DNA from: Rhyzopertha dominica
Taxonomy: Eukaryota > Arthropoda > Insecta > Coleoptera > Bostrichidae
NCBI GenBank assembly: GCA_025024175.1
Contig: QCXZ01000064.1
Coordinates: forward strand, 21,634,286 to 21,698,285
Direction: 5' to 3'
DNA length: 64,000 nt
The notes under the pieces were generated by a model. That model was given only the letters and a program-made list of their open reading frames with translations. It was not told the DNA's origin and searched no databases. Numbering within the stretch: the first letter of the stretch is position 1; each line of letters opens with the position of its first letter. The position numbers and the translations under genes were made by a program. Positions 3,601 to 61,800 of this stretch are shown piece after piece.

Positions 3601-6600
3601 TTCCTATCTTGACTCACATAACGTGCACGGAAACCCGATGGAAAAGATGTTTGCTTTATTATTATGGCTTAAGTATCGCTTGTTCGTACTTAATCTATGT
3701 AGGATTTACAAACTTGTTTGCTATCATAGGAATAAATGGGTATTTATCTAGCTAGCTATCTTGAATACGAGATGAGTGAAATAAGCATTTTGTGTCCCTA
3801 TCTATCCAGATAGATTTTTCACTTTCACAATTTAATAATACAAAATACTTTTAAATTTAACGTCTATAACAAAATGTGACTTTTCACATACACTTACTGA
3901 AAAAACATTTGGCAATACATTGCACTTTATTGAGAAGGAAGTAAACAAGGTTCTGCTAAAAACCCAAATACCCATCTTGTGTTTTATAAAAGACGTCAAA
4001 CTTCTTCGAACCCATTGTTGGTTGTTGGTTAGTATTATCTCTTACTCAGAATTGTTTAGCACGAGCTATAAAATGAACCATTATGTTTTAAAGAATATTT
4101 TCTTATTACACAGCATGTTTTTAAATCGCTCACTATTTACAGACAGTGTAAATGAAACTTAGAGAACGACTTTGTATAGAACCGCTTAATGTTTGAGCAA
4201 GACCGTACAACAACACATTATGCTCTTGTGGTATCTGTAACATTAATATGTTCGACAGTTTGCTAGCCTTTTTGGTATACAAATAGATATTTATCCATTT
4301 TTTGCTTAAATATAAAAACATTGCGAAACGAATATCAGCAGTAAGCTTGTATGTTATTTAATTGTGCCCTGTTTTATCAACGGCTTTCTGAATATATATA
4401 AATAATGAAACTGATTTTAACCCGTACAATTGATGAGGTTGAACGTTATAAATGAGCACTACGAGTGAATGGACTATAATAGAACTATTCTGTTTAAAAC
4501 CAAACTTATATCGTACTTCTGATACGCGGTTTTGCTTGCATTACCCCATACTGGTGCCAAATATTTTAGATGTGAACTGTACGTATAAATAGTAAATTAA
4601 TGATTTCGTGTTTTTAATATATAATATATGGGTCGCTCTTCGAATGTGTGCAATTATTTAACTTTCTTGTTTTATAGTATGAGGTTCAAATGTAAGTTTT
4701 TATCAATTTTTACACCTAAATATTTAGTATTCTAGGCTGTTCTAATTAATTTACCATAAACAGTAATATTGCTTATTCGTCTAAAATTATCCACATTAAA
4801 AAATTACATAGTGTGTCATTTCCGTATTACAAAATACGCCTTTTGAGATCGGCCATTTCCAAATCATTTATATATACCTATTTTTTAAAAAGTCTCGGGC
4901 CCAGAATAGAGCCTTGGGGTACCCCGTACTTGATTTGCCTGTGATAATTAGTGAATTCTTGTGTACTACTACCGATTCTGCAGGTAACTGTTAAATAACT
5001 GTATAGTGACGATCCACTTTTTCTCATTGTTTTCATCTTTTAAGAATGTTCACGTCTATTACCTATATCAAAAGCTTTTTTAAGGTCGAAAACTAAGGAG
5101 CTAACATTGTTGTTATTTTCTAGGTTACTGCATATGACGCTTAAAAGACCCATAGCTGCAGTTAGAGTACTTTGTTTTTCTTGGTAACTAGTCTGGCTAT
5201 TTTGTTTAATTTAATGTCGTCTTAAATACATATTAGTCTTTGGTGAATTACTTTTTCATAAATTTTTGAAATTATTGAAAGCATTGAGACAGTTATTTGG
5301 GTCTTGCGTGTTACCGCATTTGTACAACGATGTTATTATCGAAGTTTCGTTATAATGATTCCTGAACAAACATTACATTATGAAAGTTACCATTTCTCAA
5401 AATAAACTAATAATATTGATTTTGCTGTTTAAAAACACGTCCAGTACCTATTTAGTTTGATAAGTTGAGGTAAATTGTACTGACAAGTAACAAAAATGTA
5501 CAAAATTAGCAATTAATGTAAGTATATGCAACAAAAGTTATACAGATGTGGAAAAACTTTTGAAATATACGACACATTTTCTGTAAAGAGTAAACCTCAG
5601 CCGTAAGGCTGTTATGATCGAATTAGACTTTTGAAAGATACTTTTTTGTTCGTACCCTTCCATAACTGTAATAGGAAGTTAAGTTGCAGCAGTACACGGG
5701 CAGTACTTGCAGTAAATACTGCCAAATTGGCAAGTTTTGAGCAAATGGATAATCCCTTGATTTTGATCTTCTAGTATAAAGTCTATAGCAACAAACGTTA
5801 TTGCCTATAAATCACACAAAGCAAAACATACGTACCTATAAATAACGGTTTAGAAATGATGGAATCATTACATCTAGTGCAACATAATATACATATACAT
5901 TCAATTGTTGCAATTAAATGTTTCAGGCTTTGCATGAAATATATATCCCAAACAATGTGCAAAATGGAAACAAAAAACTATGAAAATACTAAAGAAGAAA
6001 ACATATCAATAGTGGAACGAATACTTCTAAAAACAGGAAATCCTAAGCTGGCAGCAGTTCTAGCTTTAGATTTATTACTAGTTGGAGTTGATACCGTAAT
6101 AAGTGCAATATCATTGATGTTATTAGGTCTTAACTACATTTTGTTTTAGACATCTATAGCAGCAGCTTCTACATTATATCAATTATCAAAAAATCCTGAA
6201 AAGCAAGAGAAACTTTTTAGAGAACTGCAAACAATTATACCCGATAGAAATGCTAAAATTGATAGCTTCGCCCAAGAGAATATGTCATACATGAAGGCGT
6301 GTATCAAAGAAACTTTAAGGTAAGGAGCTCAATAAAACATTTCGCTTGACTTTTAAACTATGATGTGTTTTAGAATGTATCCCGTTATAATTGGTAATGG
6401 TAGAAGTTTGCAATCGGATGCCATTATTTCAGGCTATCAGGTTCCTAAAGGAGTATGTATAAATTAATAAGTTCGTTCATATAGCTAATAGGACTAATAA
6501 TATTCTATATTTCTATAAAATTTTAATTCAATATTTACCTGTCTTTTTTTCAGACTCACATTATATTCCCCCACTTGGTTGTAAGTAACACAGACGAATA

Positions 6601-6941
6601 TTTCGACAATCCAAAAAAATTTATTCCTGAAAGATGGTTAAAAAGCGATTCTAAGAGCTGCCCTATTCGAAATCAAAAGAGAATACACCCTTTCGTTAGC
6701 TTACCATTTGGATATGGGAGGCGATCATGTCTTGGCAGGAGATTTGCAGAAATTGAATTACAAATACTTCTCGCGAAGGTCTGTTTATTTAGGGTAATTA
6801 AATAGAAAATAATTTGTTCCTTTTTTTCAGATTTTTCGAAAATATAAAGTGGAATATAACTACGGTGAACTAACATACAAAATTACACCTACGTATGTAC
6901 CTGAACAACCGTTAAAATTCAAACTGACCGTAAGAGACTGA
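699..6941 (+). CDS. Mitochondrial-clan cytochrome P450 (CYP12-like), 3' part
   Basis: Exons at 699-775, 829-1030, 5927-6095, 6150-6319, 6374-6452, 6554-6778 and 6831-6941 (TGA) join in phase with GT-AG introns. Visible hallmarks are the mitochondrial-clan core ALESVARVSLDTRLGCL, the I-helix LLLVGVDTTS, the K-helix ExxR as KETLR, the PERF-type stretch FIPERW, and the haem-binding loop FGYGRRSCLG with its ligand Cys. Family knowledge: such enzymes sit in the mitochondrial matrix, take electrons from adrenodoxin, and act on steroids or xenobiotics. The substrate cannot be told from sequence. The N-terminal third (targeting peptide, A to about C helices) is not in the window, so the gene is either cut by the window edge or truncated. 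AATAAA signals lie at 7041 and 7066. CYP12 versus a neighbouring family (CYP301, CYP49) is not settled. Confidence 0.88.
1685..3306. mobile_element. 1.6 kb foldback element with CAGGGTGTC-type ends
   Basis: The left end (TACAGGGTGTCCCGCATTAT at 1685) is matched in reverse complement by the right end (GCGGGACGCCCTGTA ending at 3306). Homology continues inward: 1685-1857 pairs with roughly 3120-3306, and after an interruption 2480-2650 pairs with about 2840-3000. The element is therefore one long, diverged inverted repeat. The ends abut TA, compatible with a Tc1/mariner-type target duplication (inference). No transposase reading frame remains. It lies in the large P450 intron. Confidence 0.72.
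1858..2476. repeat. Element nested in the left arm of the foldback
   Basis: The left arm of the foldback is interrupted by a block beginning ACTTCCACACCTAACGG and ending ATTGGATGTGGAAGTATTG, so its ends are a short inverted repeat around ACTTCCACA. The right arm lacks the block, which shows a later insertion. A second, diverged copy lies at 25372-26225. Confidence 0.62.
4770..5230 (-). pseudogene. LINE reverse transcriptase remnant
   Basis: Read on the minus strand, broken frames give non-LTR reverse transcriptase landmarks in the right order: an entry region with QSTLTAAMGLL, motif A as VFDLKKAFD, then GVPQGSILGPRLF, YINDL, and a decayed catalytic box reading YGNDT where YADDT is expected. 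Stops and frameshifts interrupt it. It looks like an old Jockey/CR1-type fragment in the P450 intron. Confidence 0.72.
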
Positions 6942-10702: not shown

Positions 10703-13216
10703 ATGGAAACTATGGAAAGCGGAAAATCGGATGGCGAGGTAAGGGAGAAAATGCCGCGAACAGTAAAAGATCTTATAGCGGACTTCAATGAGAGCCTGGC
10801 CGACTCCGATACAGAGGTCGATATTAAGAAAGAAGCAAGGGATTCTCAAGAAGACGATGGAGCAAGTGATGCTGAAATTAAGACCCCGCCAAAAAAGAGG
10901 GGACGGAAAAATCAAAACGATAACGACACTAGTGTAACAGACACTACAGGGAAAAAGAAATGCTACAAGCAAAAGTACATAAAAGACTGGGAAAAAATAC
11001 CAGCTTTTAAGCCATGGTTGACAGAAAGCCTGTTGGGTAGCACATATTTTTATTGCAAANTTTGNAAGGCCGATAACAAATGCGGAAGGACAGAACTGGA
11101 AAAACACATGTCATCGANAAAGCACATGCGCAACGCCACACAGCCTACTGTTAAAGTACAAGTAAACACTCCAGGGATTTTAGTTTATAGTATGCTTTAA
11201 AAAACACTGTTTTAGAGGAAATTTACATTCCGAGGGTTATTATGTCCAGTTTTTACTCCATTTAATACAGCTGGGTAAATATTTACTTCATTTTTCTATG
11301 TGATCCTGTCTACATTCAACTAACTGTGCTGTACTGTTTCCCTGCTATACTAATCAGTATAACTAATATGCACTCATGTAAATATTTTTTTCTTTAAAAT
11401 GTTAAAGGATAAATCTTTTAGGGACATTAATTATGAAATCATTTCTTCATATGCAAATTATCTTGCCCAATGTGGAGTCAAAGGAATATTAGGTATGAGG
11501 AGAGTGACAACTGTAATAATTACATTAAAATGTATTCATTTCTGAATTTAGTGAATGATGTAGTTGGTGAAGGAATGTCACTGACTACAACTGAAAGAAT
11601 GCATATCACAGAAATTTGGATAAAGGAATGTGAAAAACATGGTATGATGTTAATGGTTCATGTTGGAGGTGCACCAATGAAAGATGTCAAAGAAATGGTA
11701 AGCCAGTTCTTATTACCTACATACATGCATTACAAGCTAGGTCAAATATTTTGTGTATTTGAGGCGAAGCATGCTGAACGAAAGAAAGCTGGTGCAATAG
11801 TAGTATTGCCTGATGTTTATAATGGTCCTGAGAACCACTACGATTTGATGAGATACTTAAAAACAGTCAGCAATGTTGCAAATACTACTCCATTGTTGTA
11901 TCATCATTTTCCAAAACAAACAAGGGTTGACAGTAAGTATTTTAGTAATCATTCTAATCTAAATACAATGTACGGACGCATCCTAGGTATCCTCCTTTAC
12001 TATGTTGTAAAAATAAAATTCAGGTATATATGTTGAACATCAAAAAAGTTTTTGATTCCTAATATCAATTAAAATTGAACCAACTTTCCCAATGCTCTGA
12101 AATTTTAGTTATGATAGTGTTTAAATAATTATTAATAAATATTTCTAGTTAGGGGACAGATCAGTCACAAAAATTAAGCTATATAGTATCAGAAGCCTTC
12201 AGCACTTTTACTTTTAGTGTACCTACATAGAATTTTTAATATTTTAGTAAAAAATATTACCTATTAAAAATGTATCTCTCTGCAAGATTAAATGTTGGTG
12301 CAAAATTGACTGTTGCGTGCAAGATTTAATTAAAACAAAAGTTAAACATGCAAAACATATTGGTAATATCTTATTAATAAATTAGATCAGTCGTCTGCAC
12401 TAGACTTAAACTGCACTGATGAGCTGTAATGACAGTGAAATAGATCTATCTGCAGTTGGTTGAGGCTTAGACATGCATTACAATAATTTGAAATTTAAAT
12501 TTTTTGTATATGTGCTTTTTTATAATAGTGATTGTAAAATATTGGGCGTATTTTAACTTGTAATGCTTTTCTACATATTGTTGCATGTTTTGTATACCTA
12601 CCCTTTCTGCATAAAATAAATCATGTTTTAGTTGACATGACCCGGTTTTTATTCGATATGATCGGAGAAATCGATTCATTCGTTGGAATAATCTATAGCT
12701 CAAATGATTTTAAAGAAGCAGCTTCTGCATTGGCAGTTAATGAAGACAAATACACTGTGTTCATGGGTACAGACGAAGTAAGTCACTTATCAATTACATA
12801 TAAGGATATTTCGATCCTTGCATTGTAGTTTATTTTAGGTTCCACAGCTCTTGGCTTTAACTCGATAATGAGTGCAAGTCTGAATTTTGTACCAAAGTTT
12901 GTACAATCAATTAGAACATCTGTTAAAGATGGTAACATACATTCAGCTAAAGTAACTCAGAAATACTTGACAGAAATCTGTGATGCTGTCATGCAACAAG
13001 GTAAATATTTCTTACAATAAAATTTTTGGTTAATGACAATTTTNTTCAGGACAAAGGGTCCCATCCCTTAAGTGTGCGATGAACATATTAAGCCCTGTTC
13101 AAGTGGGNGTGTGTAGAGAACCTTTGGTTAACATATGGGAAGACAAAGTGAACAAACTGAAAAGAGACTTGGAAAACATGATGAAAAGTAACGCGACATT
13201 TTCTGCAACCGAGTAA
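10703..13216 (+). CDS. BED-like zinc finger fused to a catalytically dead N-acetylneuraminate-lyase fold
   Basis: Exons 10703-11161, 11216-11274, 11422-11492, 11552-11697, 11764-11932, 12632-12777, 12829-13000 and 13050-13216 (TAA) join in phase into 462 codons. Residues 1-90 are acidic/basic linker with a KKRGRK stretch. Residues 90-145 form a C-x2-C-x13-H-x5-H finger of the type common in transposon-derived proteins: YIKDW, FKPWL, YFYC, KHMSS. The second Cys is the ambiguous codon TGN. Residues 154-462 match the DapA/NPL TIM-barrel family throughout: TFRGLLCPVFTPFN, GVKGILVNDVVGEG, HVGG, PLLYHHFP, MGTDEFILG, LNFVP. Mapped on the family, the substrate-binding T-T is V200-V201, the catalytic Tyr is H292 and the Schiff-base Lys is I322. 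A lyase is therefore not expected; a DNA- or ligand-binding role is inference. The start has a good context (ACCATGG). Confidence 0.85.
12392..12481. repeat. Half-copy of the 19.75 kb hairpin family
   Basis: Ninety bases in the long intron of the zinc finger-lyase gene match one arm of the hairpin at 19750-20005: AAACTGCACTGATGAGCTGT, then CTGCAGTTGGTTGAGG, then AGACATGCAT. Only one arm is present. Confidence 0.7.
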
Positions 13217-17201: not shown

Positions 17202-28364
<11,163 letters not shown>

Positions 28365-32000: not shown

Positions 32001-33858
32001 AACAAATACCCTACTTTACAAACATCTCGACTGTAGTTATCTGTCTCATATTTTCTGGTAGCAAGTTATAAAATATATTATAAAAAGTCCACACTATACT
32101 CATTGTTTAAGAATATATTCTTGAACAATGCTATACTTTCTATTACTGTAAATAAATTTATTGTAAATGTAACACATTAAAACGTAAATAAATGTCATTC
32201 ATGCACTGTTCAATATATAATTAGTTACAACTACTATAAATTACTGAAGTTGATGTTTTTCAGGTAGGGACATTTGTGGCTGTGCTGCCACTGGAACTGG
32301 AAAAACGGCTGCTTACATGCTACCAACATTGGAACGTTTAATATACAGACCATCTGGACCAAACGTCGTAACTCGTGTGTTGGTTTTAGTGCCCACAAGA
32401 GAATTAGGTGTCCAAGTGTATCAGGTTACGAAGCAACTCTCCCAATTTACAGATATCGAAACTGGACTTGCCGTGGGAGGTTTAGACTTGAAAACGCAAG
32501 AGAATATTTTGCGGAAGAATCCCGATATAGTTATCGCAACCCCTGGACGTTTAATCGATCACCTAAAAAGTACTCCAAGTTTTACACTGGACTCGATTGA
32601 GGTTTTGATTTTGGATGAAGCTGACCGTATGCTGGACGAATATTTCGCTGAGCAGATGAAAGAAATTATCAAACAGTGTTCACGTACCCGACAGACGATG
32701 CTGTTCTCTGCAACTATGACTGAAGAAGTTCGTGATTTAGCTGCTGTCTCTCTGGTAAAACCAGCAAAAGTTTTTGTTGACAGTAATCGAGATGTAGCCT
32801 TTAATCTGCGTCAAGAATTTGTCCGGATAAGAAATGATAAAGACCGAGAACCCATTTTAGCTGCGTTAGTGTGCCGAACATTCCGAGACCACTGCATGAT
32901 CTTCGTACAAACAAAGAAACAAGCCCATCGTCTGCATGTACTTCTTGGTTTGCTGGGAGCATCTATAGCCGAGTTGCATGGCAATTTGACACAGCCTCAG
33001 AGATTGGATGCACTACAAAAATTTAAAAATCAAGAAGTGGACATCCTAGTTGCCACTGATGTTGCCGCACGTGGTTTGGACATACACGGAGTTCAAACCG
33101 TGATTAACTTTGTTATGCCTGCCACCTTGGAACACTACATTCATCGGGTAGGTCGAACAGCTCGAGCTGGTCGTGCAGGTGTCTCAGTCAGTTTAGCAGG
33201 TGAACAGGAACGAAAAATGGTGAAAGACATAATAAAACGTGCACGAAATCCAGTTAAAAGTCGAGTAATTCCTCCAGATATAGTGGACAAGTACAGGACT
33301 AAATTGGAGAACTTAGAGCCACAGATTCAGCAAATATTGCAGGAAGAATATGAAGAAAGGCTGTTGAGCAAAACTGAAAACCAAGCAAATCGTTTAGCCA
33401 ACAAGCTATCTGGAGAGAAGGACGAGAAACGGCCTTGGTTCCAAAGTAAGAAGGAACGGCAAGAAGAAAAACAAAGGCTTTCTTTGCAACCTAAAATTGA
33501 GGATAACAAGAATAAGAAAAAAGACAAGAAAAAGACAAAGAAACGAGGGAAGAATTCGGAGGAATCTGATGCAGTCAAGAACGAAGTTGAAAAAGTAGCT
33601 CTGTTACAGGCGAGGTTGGCAAAGCGTAAAACGAAGTTGAAGAAGCTTAAGGTTTGTCATGACCCAACACCCAGTGGAAGAACTGGTGAAACAAAGAAAA
33701 GGAAAAGCAACTTTGCTGATAATTTGTGTGATACTTCAAAGGGTAAGGCGAAGAAGCTTAGATATGCAGCCAATTTCAAACAGAAAATGAAAGTTCAAGC
33801 CAAGAAAGGTAGTGGTAAAGCTTTTGGGAAGCCACAGTCAAAGAAAAGAAGGAAGTGA
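29031..33858 (+). CDS. DDX27: DEAD-box RNA helicase DDX27 / Rs1 (yeast Drs1)
   Basis: Three exons (29031-29147, 29211-29688, 32264-33858) give 729 residues. The protein is a nucleolar ATP-dependent RNA helicase for large ribosomal subunit assembly. The acidic/basic N-terminus contains the family block FEFVSSVEEYNKDAWNDL. The Q-motif region follows as MNLSRPLLKAIGEM (one N base just before it). The helicase core has motif I AATGTGKT (about residue 206), PTRELG, TPGRL, DEAD in LDEADRML (about 316), SAT in LFSATM, ARGLDI, and HRVGRTARAGR (about 490). The tail is lysine-rich with repeated KKK/KKT runs, typical of a nucleolar protein. The 63 nt first intron has no stop and is a multiple of three, so an unspliced form would read through. 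AATAAA lies at 33886. The 2.6 kb second intron shows no gene. Confidence 0.97.
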
Positions 33859-36774: not shown

Positions 36775-39654
36775 TTATTTTACATTTTTTACCAAGTCAC
36801 GCATTGCTACGCTTCTAGAACTTCTGTCTACAGTGTTGACCTTGGGCAGTCGATTTTTATTCAACTCCTTCAAAGCAAAGAAAAATCTCGTTCGAAAAAA
36901 GACTCGAACAAGGGCCTTGAAATGATTATCATGGCACAAGGACAAATCCAATAGGATATGGTTTGCCAGAAATGTTTCAGCAGCTTGCTCAAAATTACTC
37001 TTATTTTCTAGCAACTCCAATCGGATTTGGCGAAAATATTTTTCTGCGGTCAAAAAGTATGAAAACACTTTCAGTTGTGGATAAACCAATTTGTTTTCTT
37101 TAAATTCCTTGAAACAGGTTAGTAACGATGGGTCAATTCTTTCATTTGTTGAATAAGTCAGAGCAGAAAGACAGTCTTGGCAGCTTATTCTTAATGAGCA
37201 TATTAAACTTCCCAGCAAATAATATAACGTTTGCTTTAGTGTATCAGATTCTTCATCAGTATCATCTATCGTGTCTATTTCTGACAAAACACTTGCATTG
37301 TGTTCTTCTACATTATCACTTTTTTTATTTTTACAGTACCTAATTAAATGGGTGCTTGTATCTGTATCATAATTTCCGTGTATGATCTGACACTCATATT
37401 GAGATAGAGTAATCAATCTCAGTGACACTTTAAACTCATGAGGTCCAGGTACTGGCGTTCGGCTTCGAATAACGGAAAACAAATTCTCAACTGCATCTTG
37501 TGTAAGGCGACCGCCCATTACATATTTGTACCCATATTTATTCAAATATTCTTCTTGGATATCCAGTGCAGTTTTTGTAGCCAGTATTATTCCAGATTGA
37601 ACAGGTTTCCACTCAGCCTTACCTCCAATCTTAATATTATAAATAATACTCATGAAGTCATTCATAAAATTCACAGCGTTGTCATGTGTGTCCTCATTCA
37701 TGTGTGACCAGGCAAGTTTAGTGTTCCTGGAGGTTATTATTTTGAACCACTTAAACGCTGTTTTACAAAACCAAGCAGTGGTTGCATGGGTTTCATTGAT
37801 TTTGCCTTTTGCAATGAAATACTCAATACCAGCACCTGTGTCGTGATGTAAAAGAGCATATGCTGTACTGACATTCATTTTAGCAAAATGGTTAGGATGA
37901 AACATATGCTCCTTGAGGCGTGGGGCAATTTTTAAATCCATTTCTGAATCCAAATCGAACAATTGTTTTATGGCTTCAATGTCAATATAGTCACTAGGAA
38001 GATGATATTTTTGTTGAATTTCAAAATTAATCTGAAATTTTTTATGCCCAATCAATGATATTGCAAGATTTTTGAAGACGTGAACTGGATCAGGCATTAT
38101 GTATAATCTCTCTTGGTTGTTTAAAGGATGTGGACAAAAGTTGACTATTTTCTCATGTCTGTTGGCTGTAATGTGAAGTAGTTTCCAGAAACCTCTATTT
38201 AAGGGACCCATGTCGGATATTATTGTTTTTATTGTCACACCTACATCATCTGCTCGCTTAACATAATAAAAAAGTTTTCTCAGAACTTCATCCGCGCTAT
38301 ATGAGTTTGCCGTCAGTTCATAGCCAACTGTTTGTTTCCACCTGGTACTCATTCCGGCAAGCATAAATACTAAAGCATGTGATGCCAATTCCTTAGAACT
38401 GTCCAAGTTCCCAGACAGAAGCATTGTTGGCCTTCCTACTACTGATTTTGTGGAGTTGTCAAACTGAAGAGATGGTTTTATAGCCATTTCATCTAACAAT
38501 AATGCAGCATGCCTTTCATGCTCCTCAAATGTCGCCACCTGAAATACAAGAAAAACGTATTTTTATGTACGTAATACAAGTAAATTTTTTTATTTCAGTT
38601 TTTATGTACATGTTCGATTAATATCGGATTTCCACACTTGCATTATAATTAAAAAAAAAAAAAAATACGAAAATCACAAAACCCATCACCTTAGGTTTAA
38701 GTAATTCAAAAACGTCTTCTAGCAAACCTGGCTTAAATTTCAAATTTTCTATCCGACTTTGGAGTGTCCTGATGGCTGGTAGAGGATACTTTTGCTTGCA
38801 AAGCTCTTCATACCCTTTCTTTCCACATGCCATATACAGCTTAAGGGCATTCTGTATAGTTTCATCTGACCATTCTTTTCCTCGATGATTGCCATATTTT
38901 AAAAAATGAATTTGGTCTTCAGAAAAAATAACTTTGACCTTTCCCTCAATGTTGCTAATTTGTTTTTTTAAAGCTGCAATTTGTGCCTTAGCTGCTCGTA
39001 ATTCATTCTGCAAACATTTCAAGGGGATATTGTCCTCTTGGTCACTGTTGCTAGTTGATGAACCTAAAATTTTATTGTAATTTTTTTCTAGATATCTTGC
39101 ATTAGAATATCATATTCTACTAACCAGACTGTAATGTGGAAGTTGTTTTCAACTGTTCCTGGGTTGTAAAAATTTCAGAAGTTAAATCCTCACTTGGTGA
39201 GTCTGCAACATTTGCCAATTACACAATACTTGGTAGTTGTAGATAGTTGTTACAACACAAAGGTCATTCTACTTTAAATACCTGATAGTTTGCGTTTCAT
39301 TCCTTGATTCTGCAAAATGTCTGGTGTCCTAATAGTTGGAATTGCATTTCTTTTTAATAACTTTCGGTTATCCAGTCGGTTTAGCTCAAATTGGTCAGCC
39401 TCAAAATGTGCCTGAAAATAGCAATAAACACATCTTTACGTCAAATAACACTATAACAAAGTTAACACAGACAAATTAATTACAAATGGTATATTTACCT
39501 CACACAATAACGCTCGTTCAGGTAAGTCGCTTCGATTGATAAACGCAAGCCATGCTTTTCTACGTCGGTCATCACATTTTGCTGTAGGTATTCGGAATAA
39601 CCTATACCCGTTCTCGCCACGGTTTCGGCACCCGGTTAAACAACAGCTGGGCAT
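36775..39654 (-). CDS. P-type transposase with THAP domain (THAP9-like)
   Basis: Minus-strand exons 39499-39654, 39282-39411, 39125-39202, 38690-39063 and 36775-38538 (TAA) join in phase to 833 residues, within the range of P transposase and THAP9. Residues 1-80 are a THAP C2CH finger: MPSCCLTGCRNRG, then YRLFRIP, W in RRKAWLAFI, and CEAHF across the first splice. A Lys/Glu-rich probable coiled coil follows (LRAAKAQIAALKKQISNIEG), then the P-type block YGNHRGKEWSDETIQNAL. The RNase H-like region shows IISDMGPLNRGFW and the hallmark MPDPVHVFKNL, both with candidate catalytic Asp, and the late hallmark GRLTQDAVENLFSVIRSR. Introns of about 70-150 nt lie between the 5' exons. No stop or frameshift is seen. 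It cuts and pastes its own DNA in the nucleus; activity is not proven. Confidence 0.93.
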
Positions 39655-41141: not shown

Positions 41142-42863
41142 CTAGTTTTTCTCTATGACAGTATCGTTCTTCGTATCCTCATTCTCGAATGACATATCCA
41201 AACTCGAGTCGCCTTGCGNTGTGTTTTTAAAGTCGCGCAGCATGGAACCATTAAAAAGTTCTGAGAATGGGACAAGGTCCTTCTTGCTAAAGACCCTGGC
41301 GTTGCCCTTCGCATTCCCCTCGCCTTTGATGTTCTGGAGAAAGATATTGTCGAACCTGAAACAGAATTTGTGTGTTTCTGAGTCGTTAACATTTATCAGT
41401 ACGTTTGATTTTTACCGCTCCAAGCAACTGAAGTCTCCAATTTCACTGGTAACTTGTGCAGTGTCTTCAGTCTCCACTAGCACCCCATATTTTTTGCTAT
41501 GTACGATTTCAGTGTCTTTTACGTTGATTTTGCAATTGTCATGTATTTTTAGACCTGTACCACATCCAATGATGTTACTGCCTTCGACCGTTATGTTGGA
41601 GTAGGAATTTCCAACGATACCAAATGCAAAATTATTAATTTCACTATCGGTAATCTGCAAAACGCTTTTTCCCAGTGCAATTATAGCATGCTGAGAGTTC
41701 CCGTTGCTCACCACCTTGCAGTTTTTTATGTGTAACTTACCGCTGTGCACCAAAATGGCGCAATGCGACTTGCTCGCGTCAATTGTCAGATTTTCAAGCG
41801 TGACATTGCCACGCACGAAAAATATTACGTTTTCGTTTGTTCCTGCTATTACCGTGTCGGAATTTTCATATAGCCCAGTTATGATCCCGCCTCTTTCTAA
41901 GATTCCTGTGTATTTAATCTCGTGCCTCGACTTGCTCAAAAAAATGCAGTCATTCGGATTCATTTTGTTGAGGACCTCAGATAAAGTAGAGGATGCTGAC
42001 AATGTGCCGTTCCCAACACAATTCTGGACTCTCTTAATGAAATCAACGCATTCTGATGCTGCATATTTGTGAAACACAATCCACTGTCGGAATTCAGTAT
42101 CTATATTGTGTTGCTTCTTATAAATCATCCGTAACAATGGATTTTCTAAAAACTCAAACTCATTTTGTAATTCTTTCATTTCCACCTGTGCTTCGACAAA
42201 TTTATATATATTTTCATCATCTAAGTTATTGTAATCTAGTGCCAGTTCGTCCTCGTAATCTTCCAGTTCTTCCCTGAGCTTATCTCTTTTAATTTCCAAC
42301 CTCTTCACTTCAGGTACCAACGATTTCAAACGTTCAACAATCTCGGGAGCTAATGTAGCGTTCTTTGCATCGTAAAACAACCTCAAGCGACTTTCCAGAT
42401 GAGTGTCTATCCATACACAATCGTTCTCTTCATCCCATGGCATGTACAGGTTCAAATAAAAGAAGCGCAAAGTATCAAGTGCATTTGCTGTTGTATCAAT
42501 GTTGATTGCCACTGATTTGTCTTGCAGTTTGGTCGGCCAGAGCTCTACGAGTGGAACATAGTGATGATCTGGCAAGTGAATATCATCGTCTTGCACAGCA
42601 AGTATCTGTACGTAGCCCATCTGCTCTGTACAGTCAATATTCTCGACATAAACGAGTACGAAAGTGGGAAAAGGTATTTCAAATAGGGAACATGTGGTTC
42701 TTGGCATCTTCCATACCGCTTGCCATCCTGCTGTATCCAGCGTTAGGTCTAAATAAGACGACCAGTTTTTCCTTAAATCTGACACCTTACAATCGTTTAA
42801 GATATTACTATATTCTTCAAAACGTTCTTGAAAGCTTTTATCGTAGACCATGACTTGATCCAT
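41142..42863 (-). CDS. nesd: Nessun dorma / SHCBP1-like centralspindlin partner
   Basis: Two exons (41416-42863 and 41142-41355, TAG) give 553 residues. SHCBP1 family proteins bind centralspindlin at the intercellular bridge and are needed for cytokinesis in the fly male germ line. The N-terminal half carries the family blocks WSSYLDLTLDTAGWQAVWKM and ELWPTKLQDKSVAIN, then a charged probable coiled coil (EIKRDKLREELEDYEDELAL). From about residue 330 there is a right-handed beta-helix of repeating short strands: NVIFFVRGNVTLENLTID, CAILVHSGKLHIKNCKV, SVLQITDSEIN, SNITVEGSNIIGCGTGLKI. These are typical of carbohydrate-binding PbH1 repeats. The C-terminus is short and acidic with one ambiguous base (41219). 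Four TGACA/TGTCA words lie 96-153 bases upstream of the start. Confidence 0.9.
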
Positions 42864-43053
42864 CCTGATGAATTGTTGAAATTGGGAATCACAAATGAAC
42901 TAGATCGTTGTTCGTTAATAAAGTAATAACGAACTAAGAGCAATCAAAAATTTGAAAATGACAGGTTACAGAGGCAGTGACAATCAAGCTTGACAGTAAC
43001 TGCCGCGGTGTTGTCACATTGATGAACCGAATATTGTGTTATAATCTTATAGT

Positions 43054-58886: not shown

Positions 58887-61800
58887 ATGATGCAACAATA
58901 TATTAAAGAACTGGAGCAAGTAAGAAAATTATTATTAATTACGTTCTCTTAGAAACAAGTAAATGCCCTTTCCATAGGAGCCCTTTGATGCTGGTGAATT
59001 CGTAGAACGTCTTGCATGGCGAACCATAGCAGAAATGAAGAAAGATAACGAAGAAGATTTTAATCCTATTCTTCTTCATGATTCATTTGTGCAAGCGATT
59101 AAGTAAGTAATATTGTTGGAAATGATTGATCATAATTTTGTTGCTTTCAGAGATTTAACATTACTGCAAGAAAGGCAACAAAGAAAGTGTGAAAGGTTAG
59201 AAGCTGCAGTACGTGAAGATGAAGCTGTATTCTTCCAAGAGGTGCAAAAACTTCAAGAAGATAATAAAGTATAATAATTTATAATATAAGAATTACACAC
59301 TGTACGTACAGAACCCTTTTTAGCAAGCTATTAATACGTTTCAAGATTTGGATGGTAAAATTAATCATGTAGCTGCGAAAGTACTTCATTTAGGAGACCA
59401 ACTTGACAGTGTCAATGGTCCCCGTTCTAGAGTAGTTGATGCACAGCGTTTAATGACTCATTTGAATGAATTTTTGTCAATGGAACCTCTTCACTCTCCT
59501 TTATTTACTGATTTAAGCAGGGTAAGTATTTTCAGTCCAAATGATTACTTAATTTTAATAACCTACATTTTTTTATCATTTTCTTTGGAGAATGGTTTTT
59601 ACAGAAATCCCATACAATTTTTCTTCCCTATATAAATTGCAGTTACCTACATGCAGGCAAAATACGAACATTGTTGACGTTTTCATTGATTATATTATGG
59701 CTCTTATACTGTTTTGGCGCTTTTTAACAGTACAATATGTAACAATTTGTAACAGCTGTTTTGCAGTATTCTCTGTGTTGTAAATAAGAGGCAAAAATGT
59801 AATATGAAACATTATTGATTATACTGTTGTATAGATTTTCAGGCAGTGATTATGGTTTCTTATACATGAAAATTTGCACTTCCATATTTCATCAGAGTAT
59901 ACAAAACCACCTGCCTTTTATTTATTTATCTATAATGTCATCCTAATAACATAACTATATAATAAAATTTATAATGTATTCTCAAATGAATGCAATAATC
60001 ATGAAATACGGGACTAATCACTTACCAGTATTTGTGTGGAAACAAATAAGGTCTGTCTGAAAGAAATAAACATAATATCTTATAAATTAGGGAGTTAAAA
60101 ACATACAGAGTGCTTAGTAATGGCAAATAAAAAAAGGTGGTTAGATTGTGTAACAAGTTATTTTATGTATATTGTAATTATTATAATTTATACTGTATTA
60201 TCCATTTTGATGAATAATTAAAAATGTGCATACCTCTGTTAAACATCTGTAATGTTATTAAATTATTAGACTTTGATTTTGTCAAGAAAATATTTGTTTC
60301 CAGATTGATGAGGCAGCTGATGTAATTCAGAAACTACATATGATAGCACAGGATCTTCCTCCAAAGTCAGTACTAATAAGATTATGAATTCACTTGTTAT
60401 TCTTGACCTTTTTCAGATATGAATCTCTCAAAAAGAAGATCGATAGAAAATATGATGAAACTGAAAGAACTTTGATTGACCAATTTGTTGTAGCTCAAAG
60501 AAAGGAAGACTTAAATCGAATGAAAGAAATAGCAGATGTTCTATCTCAGTTCAAGGGCTACTCTCATTGTATTGATGCTTTTATTGAACAAAGTCAGTCT
60601 GTAAGTACAGCATGTAGTAATTATTGAAAATTATTTTGAATTTTTTAATTTTAAATTCAGTTTTCTTGAAAACATATCATGATTAATTAATCTTTTTCAG
60701 TCATTTCCCTTAAACAAAGATATATTTTCATATCTACTCCCAATGTGTCAGCATAATTATGAAATAATCAGAAAGGTGTTTAGTAGCCCAGAACAAGTTA
60801 TGGCAAAGTTCATTTTGAATATTTACCAACTGAAAATTAGGGAATACATAGATGGAAAACTGGGTGCTAAGCTAGACACATATGCTTATTTGAAAACTCT
60901 GTTTGAGTTCTATTCCAAGTTAGTATGTAACTTAACACCAATTCTTTTAAAAACTTGTAAATTAAATTTCAGAACGAATCAACTGTCTAACGAATTACTA
61001 GTATACAACATGGGGATTGATCGGAATTATCTAAATAAGCTAACGGGAAATATCTTCAACAAATATATAGACAATTACATTACGTAAGTACATGGGAACA
61101 ATTTTGAATATTTCTCTATGATATTCTGTTTTTAGTCTGGAATTGAAGTGTCTAAAAGAAAGAAATACAGCTAACCTTCAGAAATACTACGACTCTAAAC
61201 ATCATCAAAAGAAGCAAATACAATCTGGGGGGTAAGTAAATATAATCTGGCTTAAAATATTTATAATACTTGTTATTCTGTTATAATGTGCAAATGCAAA
61301 AGTTGCTTTAAATTAACTTTTTCTGGTCAATATTTAATGTATGATATATTACCTATAGAAAAAGTACCATAATTTGGAATATCGCTGCAAAACTACTTCA
61401 TTCAATTTTTTTTACTCCATATAACTAAATATAAGACAAGAACATACACTTTGAAGAAATATACGGTGTTATCATAATTTAATCAATTTGTACCTGTGTG
61501 ACAAGCAGTTATGAATAACTATTGTATTCCAACTTCTACAATTTTTTTAATCTAATTTTTTGATCTGGTAACACTGAACCACATGTTCTGTATTATACTA
61601 CCATTTTACAGTGTCATAATGCCTCAGTTTGTAGCAGTGGCACACGGTCCATGGAAACAAGGCAAGGTTACTTACTTACTTATTTATTACTTACTTTTAT
61701 TTGATGTAATTACTTCAAAAATTAATATTTTCAAAACTGAAAAAATTCTGTGTTAAACTGTCGCTTACGGTAGCATAGTTATGTGATGTTGTTTACCATA

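Follow-up and report, generated by a model that had tools for sequence, protein, structure and literature searches.

What becomes of a sialic-acid-cutting enzyme once it has lost its catalytic residues and gained a transposon-type zinc finger? The question is raised by a gene in a 64,000-nucleotide stretch of the beetle Rhyzopertha dominica (assembly GCA_025024175.1, contig QCXZ01000064.1, positions 21,634,286 to 21,698,285 of the forward strand; hereafter the window), in which a finger is joined to the barrel of an N-acetylneuraminate lyase (NPL). At the level of sequence this is an intact fusion gene, its catalytic losses are invariant among fused proteins that form one clade, and it has a linked active paralogue with shared introns. 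On balance, and with moderate confidence, we favour reading its product as a conserved beetle finger-barrel protein devoid of the catalytic lysine, tyrosine and first threonine, which would act as a DNA-binding regulator, the barrel holding several fingers together and perhaps sensing a sugar rather than cutting it.

The fused gene is real and intact. Its eight exons (Table 1) all have GT donors and AG acceptors and add up to 1389 nt, i.e., 462 codons and a stop, without an internal stop, which agrees with an earlier interpretation made from the letters of the window (the sequence-only reading); that reading was also right about the phase 0 of the intron at the finger/barrel joint and wrong about its length, which is 54 nt and not 53 nt. 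Exon borders were set by splice signals and agreement with relatives, not by RNA from Rhyzopertha dominica. Early splice models had wrong borders (at exons 3, 6, and 7, and then at exons 6 and 7), the latter giving a 455-aa protein that is 7 residues short. A frameshift or collapsed repeat near exon 7 was considered and rejected; the acceptor at 12828 yields FILGSTALGF (compare IILGACASGF of the relatives) with the DNA unchanged. Single N bases are scattered over the window (22 in all, with one pair); the finger exon has three of them (11060, 11065, and 11118), the second cysteine codon therefore being TGN, and exon 8 has one (13108), where the codon is Gly whichever base is present. Ahead of the finger, the KDLIADF motif appears to resemble an acidic activation-type motif, and the basic cluster KKRGRK would be nuclear-localisation-like; in P0019, a partial model, this cluster is located at the finger, and in some rows it is weak (e.g., KKSR, KKPK).

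The barrel matches Pfam DHDPS (PF00701, E 1.8e-36), and V200-V201, H292, and I322 align, as had been proposed, to the GTTGE threonines, the tyrosine of the Y(H)IP box, and the lysine of human NPL (6arh), respectively; the window protein thus has the DHDPS/NAL barrel and none of the Schiff-base lysine, catalytic tyrosine, and Ser/Thr pair of an active lyase. In the active enzyme (NAL), the catalytic tyrosine is Tyr137 and the Ser/Thr pair is 47/48, with roles as given in an excerpt of PMC3014015. Residue counts come from aligning 28 fused rows (the window protein included) with 61 other NPL-type rows. The Schiff-base position (E. coli Lys165) is Ile in 28/28 fused rows and Lys in 61/61 others, so the lysine on whose absence the sequence-only reading hung occurs in no fused row; the tyrosine position is His in 28/28 against Tyr in 61/61, and the glycine before the threonine pair is Asp in 28/28 against Gly in 57/57 readable others. 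The first threonine is gone in all 28 fused rows, and the second is neither Ser nor Thr in 24/28 and still Thr in 4/28, which means that only the lysine, the tyrosine, and the first threonine are lost throughout the family; the claimed catalytic loss has to be narrowed to these three. Of 54 barrel columns with at least 95% constancy among the others, 34 keep this constancy in the fused rows, 11 are intermediate, and in 9 the old residue is absent from every fused row; the three catalytic columns tested all fall among these 9 (p 0.003, a guide only, as the columns are non-independent). Because the swaps show the constancy usual for catalytic residues, the pocket looks rebuilt and not decaying. 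The G-x-D-E motif is retained (G in 28/28, D in 27/28, E in 27/28), its last place being mostly Gln or Thr in the 61 others, with E in 3, and the GEG motif is also nearly constant. In bacterial NAL, the D and E of G-x-D-E contact the sugar part, according to the same excerpt (PMC3014015). The NCBIfam nanA equivalog gives the window protein 78.7 bits against a cut-off of 382, and the Tribolium NPL P0022, with lysine and tyrosine intact, 109, also below it. The barrel fold is predicted, the model of the relative P0001 placing the barrel of that protein within 1.6 A of human NPL.

The finger keeps C2H2 spacing, with C118, H135, and H141 conserved in 28/28 rows and C121 in 27/27 readable ones. In the same genome, it has a match at the N-terminal end of a 531-aa transposase-like open reading frame (ORF; E 1.8e-11; 47% over 60 aa). 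This ORF in turn matches DUF4371 and DUF659, both below cut-offs, and we presume its element type to be 'hAT'. The fused protein shares the W..P.FK.WL...C..C...H.....H layout of the BED-like finger of a hAT-like transposase and has the finger only, without the transposase core after it. By this homology, the origin of the finger from a captured transposon is well supported at the sequence level; the direction of capture would be from transposon to host gene.

Finger and barrel occur together in 27 database proteins, as well as in a broken model (P0033 from Tenebrio, 266 aa, excluded from all counts), as found by three pooled searches using the 455-aa form of the window protein, the finger region of a Tribolium relative, and a profile of 23 fused proteins. 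The figure of 27 is a lower bound, as the profile search omits several proteins found with the window-protein query. All 22 species-labelled fused relatives are beetles, which we take to be fireflies, weevils, leaf beetles, longhorns, ladybirds, and darkling beetles. The proposed search of other beetles for the two-domain architecture was thus successful and, together with the transposase ORF and DHDPS matches, bears out the joining of a transposon-type finger to a lyase barrel. The sequence-only reading did not know this architecture from described proteins; at least 27 such proteins stand in databases, mostly labelled 'N-acetylneuraminate lyase', a label which their sequences contradict. A search of the open-licence literature found no paper on a finger-NPL fusion protein. 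Four of the remaining five fused relatives have longest contigs of 1534 to 1665 nt encoding 454 to 478 residues, which are too short for introns like those of the window gene (1125 nt in total) and hence suggest spliced RNA; their source, 'lgn', presumably stands for assembled reads. P0037, a fused relative on a 2710-nt contig, is uninformative on splicing. The 61 other proteins are barrels of NPL type; all those with names come from insects, and five have other N-terminal domains or parts thereof. In Tribolium, the fused relative (P0016) is from T. madens and the ordinary NPL (P0022) from T. castaneum. P0019 was left out of conservation means and kept in residue counts and the tree, and P0031 and P0089 were excluded from the mean over 59 other rows. 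In Brassicogethes, P0079 carries NPL and a TFIID subunit in one model, probably a gene-prediction read-through merging two genes; its barrel was retained among the 61.

An ordinary NPL lies on the same contig and strand about 140 kb from the fused gene, with 304 residues after conceptual joining and with T-S, Y, and K intact. Six of the seven fused-gene introns have counterparts at matching places and phases in this active gene (the second adjoins a short length difference), intron 6 being extra, and the exon lengths are compared in Table 1. The shared introns imply that the duplication was DNA-based. Abscondita, a firefly, has its fused protein (LT06337) and an ordinary NPL (LT06340) on contigs of equal size; with such locus tags, the linkage may be old. 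A quick tree was built from 81 rows after removal of nine that were short or distant (P0030, P0031, and P0083 to P0089); in it, all 28 fused rows fall on one side of a branch (Shimodaira-Hasegawa-like approximate likelihood ratio test, SH-aLRT, 100; stem 0.84), which, with the same swaps in 28/28, upholds the long conservation claimed for the fused protein. This branch sits among insect NPLs; the relations around it are unresolved and the tree does not fix the age of the duplication.

The active paralogue, which the sequence-only reading did not mention, carries a transposon-type domain of its own, different from the finger. ZSWIM3_N/FAR1 exons lie upstream of it (C64:21786499-21786908; Pfam E 4.4e-16 on a conceptual 466-aa product) and splice conceptually, via a small acidic exon, in frame to the active barrel. 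Similar ZSWIM3_N/FAR1-NPL products are annotated in the Abscondita firefly (P0042) and the Anoplophora longhorn (P0044), and P0046, on a 1293-nt contig, is a partial one with too little of the domain for a Pfam match. Like the fused protein, this long form has a transposon-type DNA-binding domain at the same phase-0 intron (by conceptual splicing); unlike it, the domain is unrelated, the catalytic residues are intact, and a separate, short 'ATG' exon would also permit the plain enzyme. Ant NPL models carry a Tc5/HTH_23 domain of Tc5/CENP-B type (Monomorium P0059) and a psq domain (Vollenhovia P0067), although with one predicted isoform in one species each these might be gene-model errors. All these NPL fusions join just before the barrel start ([FY]-[RQK]-G), a point preceded by only 3 to 6 residues in 38 of the 61 other NPLs; the joint intron itself has been observed only in the Rhyzopertha dominica genome. 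From the common place of the joints, it would seem that upstream exons can be captured time and again through a phase-0 intron behind the start codon. One may go further and tentatively picture the insect NPL gene as a repeat trap, into which a hAT-like finger, ZSWIM3_N/FAR1, Tc5/CENP-B, and psq domains were spliced independently at the phase-0 first intron, the linked active and dead pair of beetles, both with DNA-binding domains, jointly forming sugar-responsive tetrameric transcription regulators; as a whole, we hold this picture to be possible and doubtful.

For the fused gene, the favoured regulator would have arisen by duplication of an NPL gene as DNA, after which a transposon finger exon would have replaced the tiny start-codon exon at the phase-0 first intron. 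The transposon-type finger would bind DNA, and the barrel may retain the tetramer known from bacterial lyases, which would cluster up to four fingers; the fused protein may also mix with the active paralogue, itself having a DNA-binding-type isoform. In the pocket, the sugar-tail side would be kept with G-x-D-E, and the pyruvate side would be rebuilt with D199, mostly V/I200, H292, and I322, so as to bind without aldol cleavage or to serve a structural role.

Several observations weigh against this reading. Neither the window protein nor the 6 relatives scanned have an above-cut-off match to a Pfam finger family, the relatives giving weak C2H2 matches below cut-offs and the window protein none, and the finger is without any PDB sequence match. 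The predicted model is disordered over its first 76 residues and gives the finger a predicted local distance difference test score (pLDDT) of only 73-80, so the finger fold, with its strands and helix, is predicted less confidently than the barrel. Standing alone, such a finger may have weak affinity for DNA, or its partner may be a protein or RNA. Searches with the window protein and the profile found ordinary NPLs and no fused protein in Trypoxylus, Nicrophorus, and Carabus, which is weak evidence of loss because the profile search also missed known fused proteins (P0011 and P0019 among them). With a finger that binds protein or RNA, the product could be a cytoplasmic pseudo-subunit, forming mixed tetramers with active NPL and thereby tuning sialic-acid breakdown; the presence of an intact active NPL in the same genome and the closeness of the modelled P0001 barrel to human NPL are in its favour, whereas the basic clusters before the finger (a loose pattern) and the DNA-binding-type isoform of the active paralogue both point, indirectly, to the nucleus, and we consider it unlikely.

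The constancy of D199 and H292 (28/28 each, as constant as catalytic residues), with GEG and G-x-D-E nearly constant in a pocket rebuilt and not decayed, would also be expected if D199, H292, and E203 made up a new catalytic site on the old scaffold, the finger only localising or regulating the enzyme. Such new chemistry seems rather improbable to us, as the Schiff-base lysine of a class I aldolase, the tyrosine, and the first threonine are gone in every fused row. Two separate genes, one for the finger and one for the barrel, or a single dead gene could be argued from the three N in exon 1 and from initial splice models that were wrong at two borders; an intact frame with exon 7 starting at 12829, finger and barrel in one protein in 27 relatives, and the whole frame on contigs of about 1.5 kb make an artefact or a decaying pseudogene highly improbable.

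Table 1. Features of the fused gene and of its neighbourhood (positions in the window).
Feature	Position	Strand	Details
Exon 1	10703..11161	+	459 nt, residues 1-153: acidic N-terminus, basic cluster, complete zinc finger; ends in phase 0
KDLIADF motif in acidic stretch	10766..10786	+	KDLF.DF-like in relatives; loose pattern matches 24/28 rows
Basic cluster KKRGRK	10892..10909	+	all rows match a loose basic-cluster pattern
Region similar to hAT-like transposase finger	10943..11140	+	47% over 60 aa to an ORF in the same genome
C2H2 ligands C118, C121 (codon TGN), H135, H141	11054..11125	+	C-x2-C-x13-H-x5-H
Finger/barrel joint intron	11162..11215	+	54 nt, phase 0; counterpart of the intron behind the active NPL start codon
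Exon 2	11216..11274	+	59 nt, barrel start; length equals active paralogue exon
Exon 3	11422..11492	+	71 nt; 77 nt in active paralogue
Exon 4	11552..11697	+	146 nt, as in active paralogue
D199-V200-V201 at lyase G-T-[TS] site	11557..11565	+	alignment of 28 fused rows
Exon 5	11764..11932	+	169 nt, as in active paralogue
H292 at catalytic Tyr site	11902..11904	+	alignment
Exon 6	12632..12777	+	146 nt; exons 6+7 equal one 318-nt exon of active paralogue
I322 at Schiff-base Lys site	12691..12693	+	alignment
Exon 7	12829..13000	+	172 nt; acceptor 12827-12828; preceding intron absent from active paralogue
Exon 8	13050..13216	+	167 nt; stop codon 13214-13216
Cytochrome P450 piece	6527-6802	+	domain match
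IMPDH/GMP reductase piece	23113-23466	-	match just below cut-off
DEAD-box helicase piece	32254-33855	+	domain match
SHCBP-type protein piece	41415-42899	-	domain match
Exocyst Sec10 piece	60683-61084	+	domain match

Elsewhere in the window, a 595-aa open frame on the minus strand (36778-38562) matches Pfam TNP-like_RNaseH_N (E 1.9e-23) and is presumably akin to P-element transposases, and other domain matches are listed in Table 1. Rfam and tRNA scans of the window found nothing.

Many database records name the fused proteins N-acetylneuraminate lyases against their sequences. If the proposed role is true, a sugar-cutting fold was turned into the scaffold for a DNA-binding protein of beetles, common to fireflies and weevils. 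If a single intron has truly received these captures, they would amount to a natural experiment showing that a start-codon intron predisposes a gene to take up domains. From NPL/NAL enzymes of PF00701, the fused protein differs by its N-terminal finger and by the replaced lysine, tyrosine, and first threonine (28/28). To our knowledge, no host-transposase fusion involves an enzyme barrel; here a transposon-type and a host domain stand in one protein and are conserved between species. Host-transposase fusion genes named in an excerpt of PMC12062965 include KRABINER, SETMAR, and CSB-PGBD3. Like these, the fused gene splices a DNA-binding domain of transposon type to a host protein; in contrast to them, its host part is the barrel of a metabolic enzyme without catalytic residues, and its captured part is a hAT-like finger.
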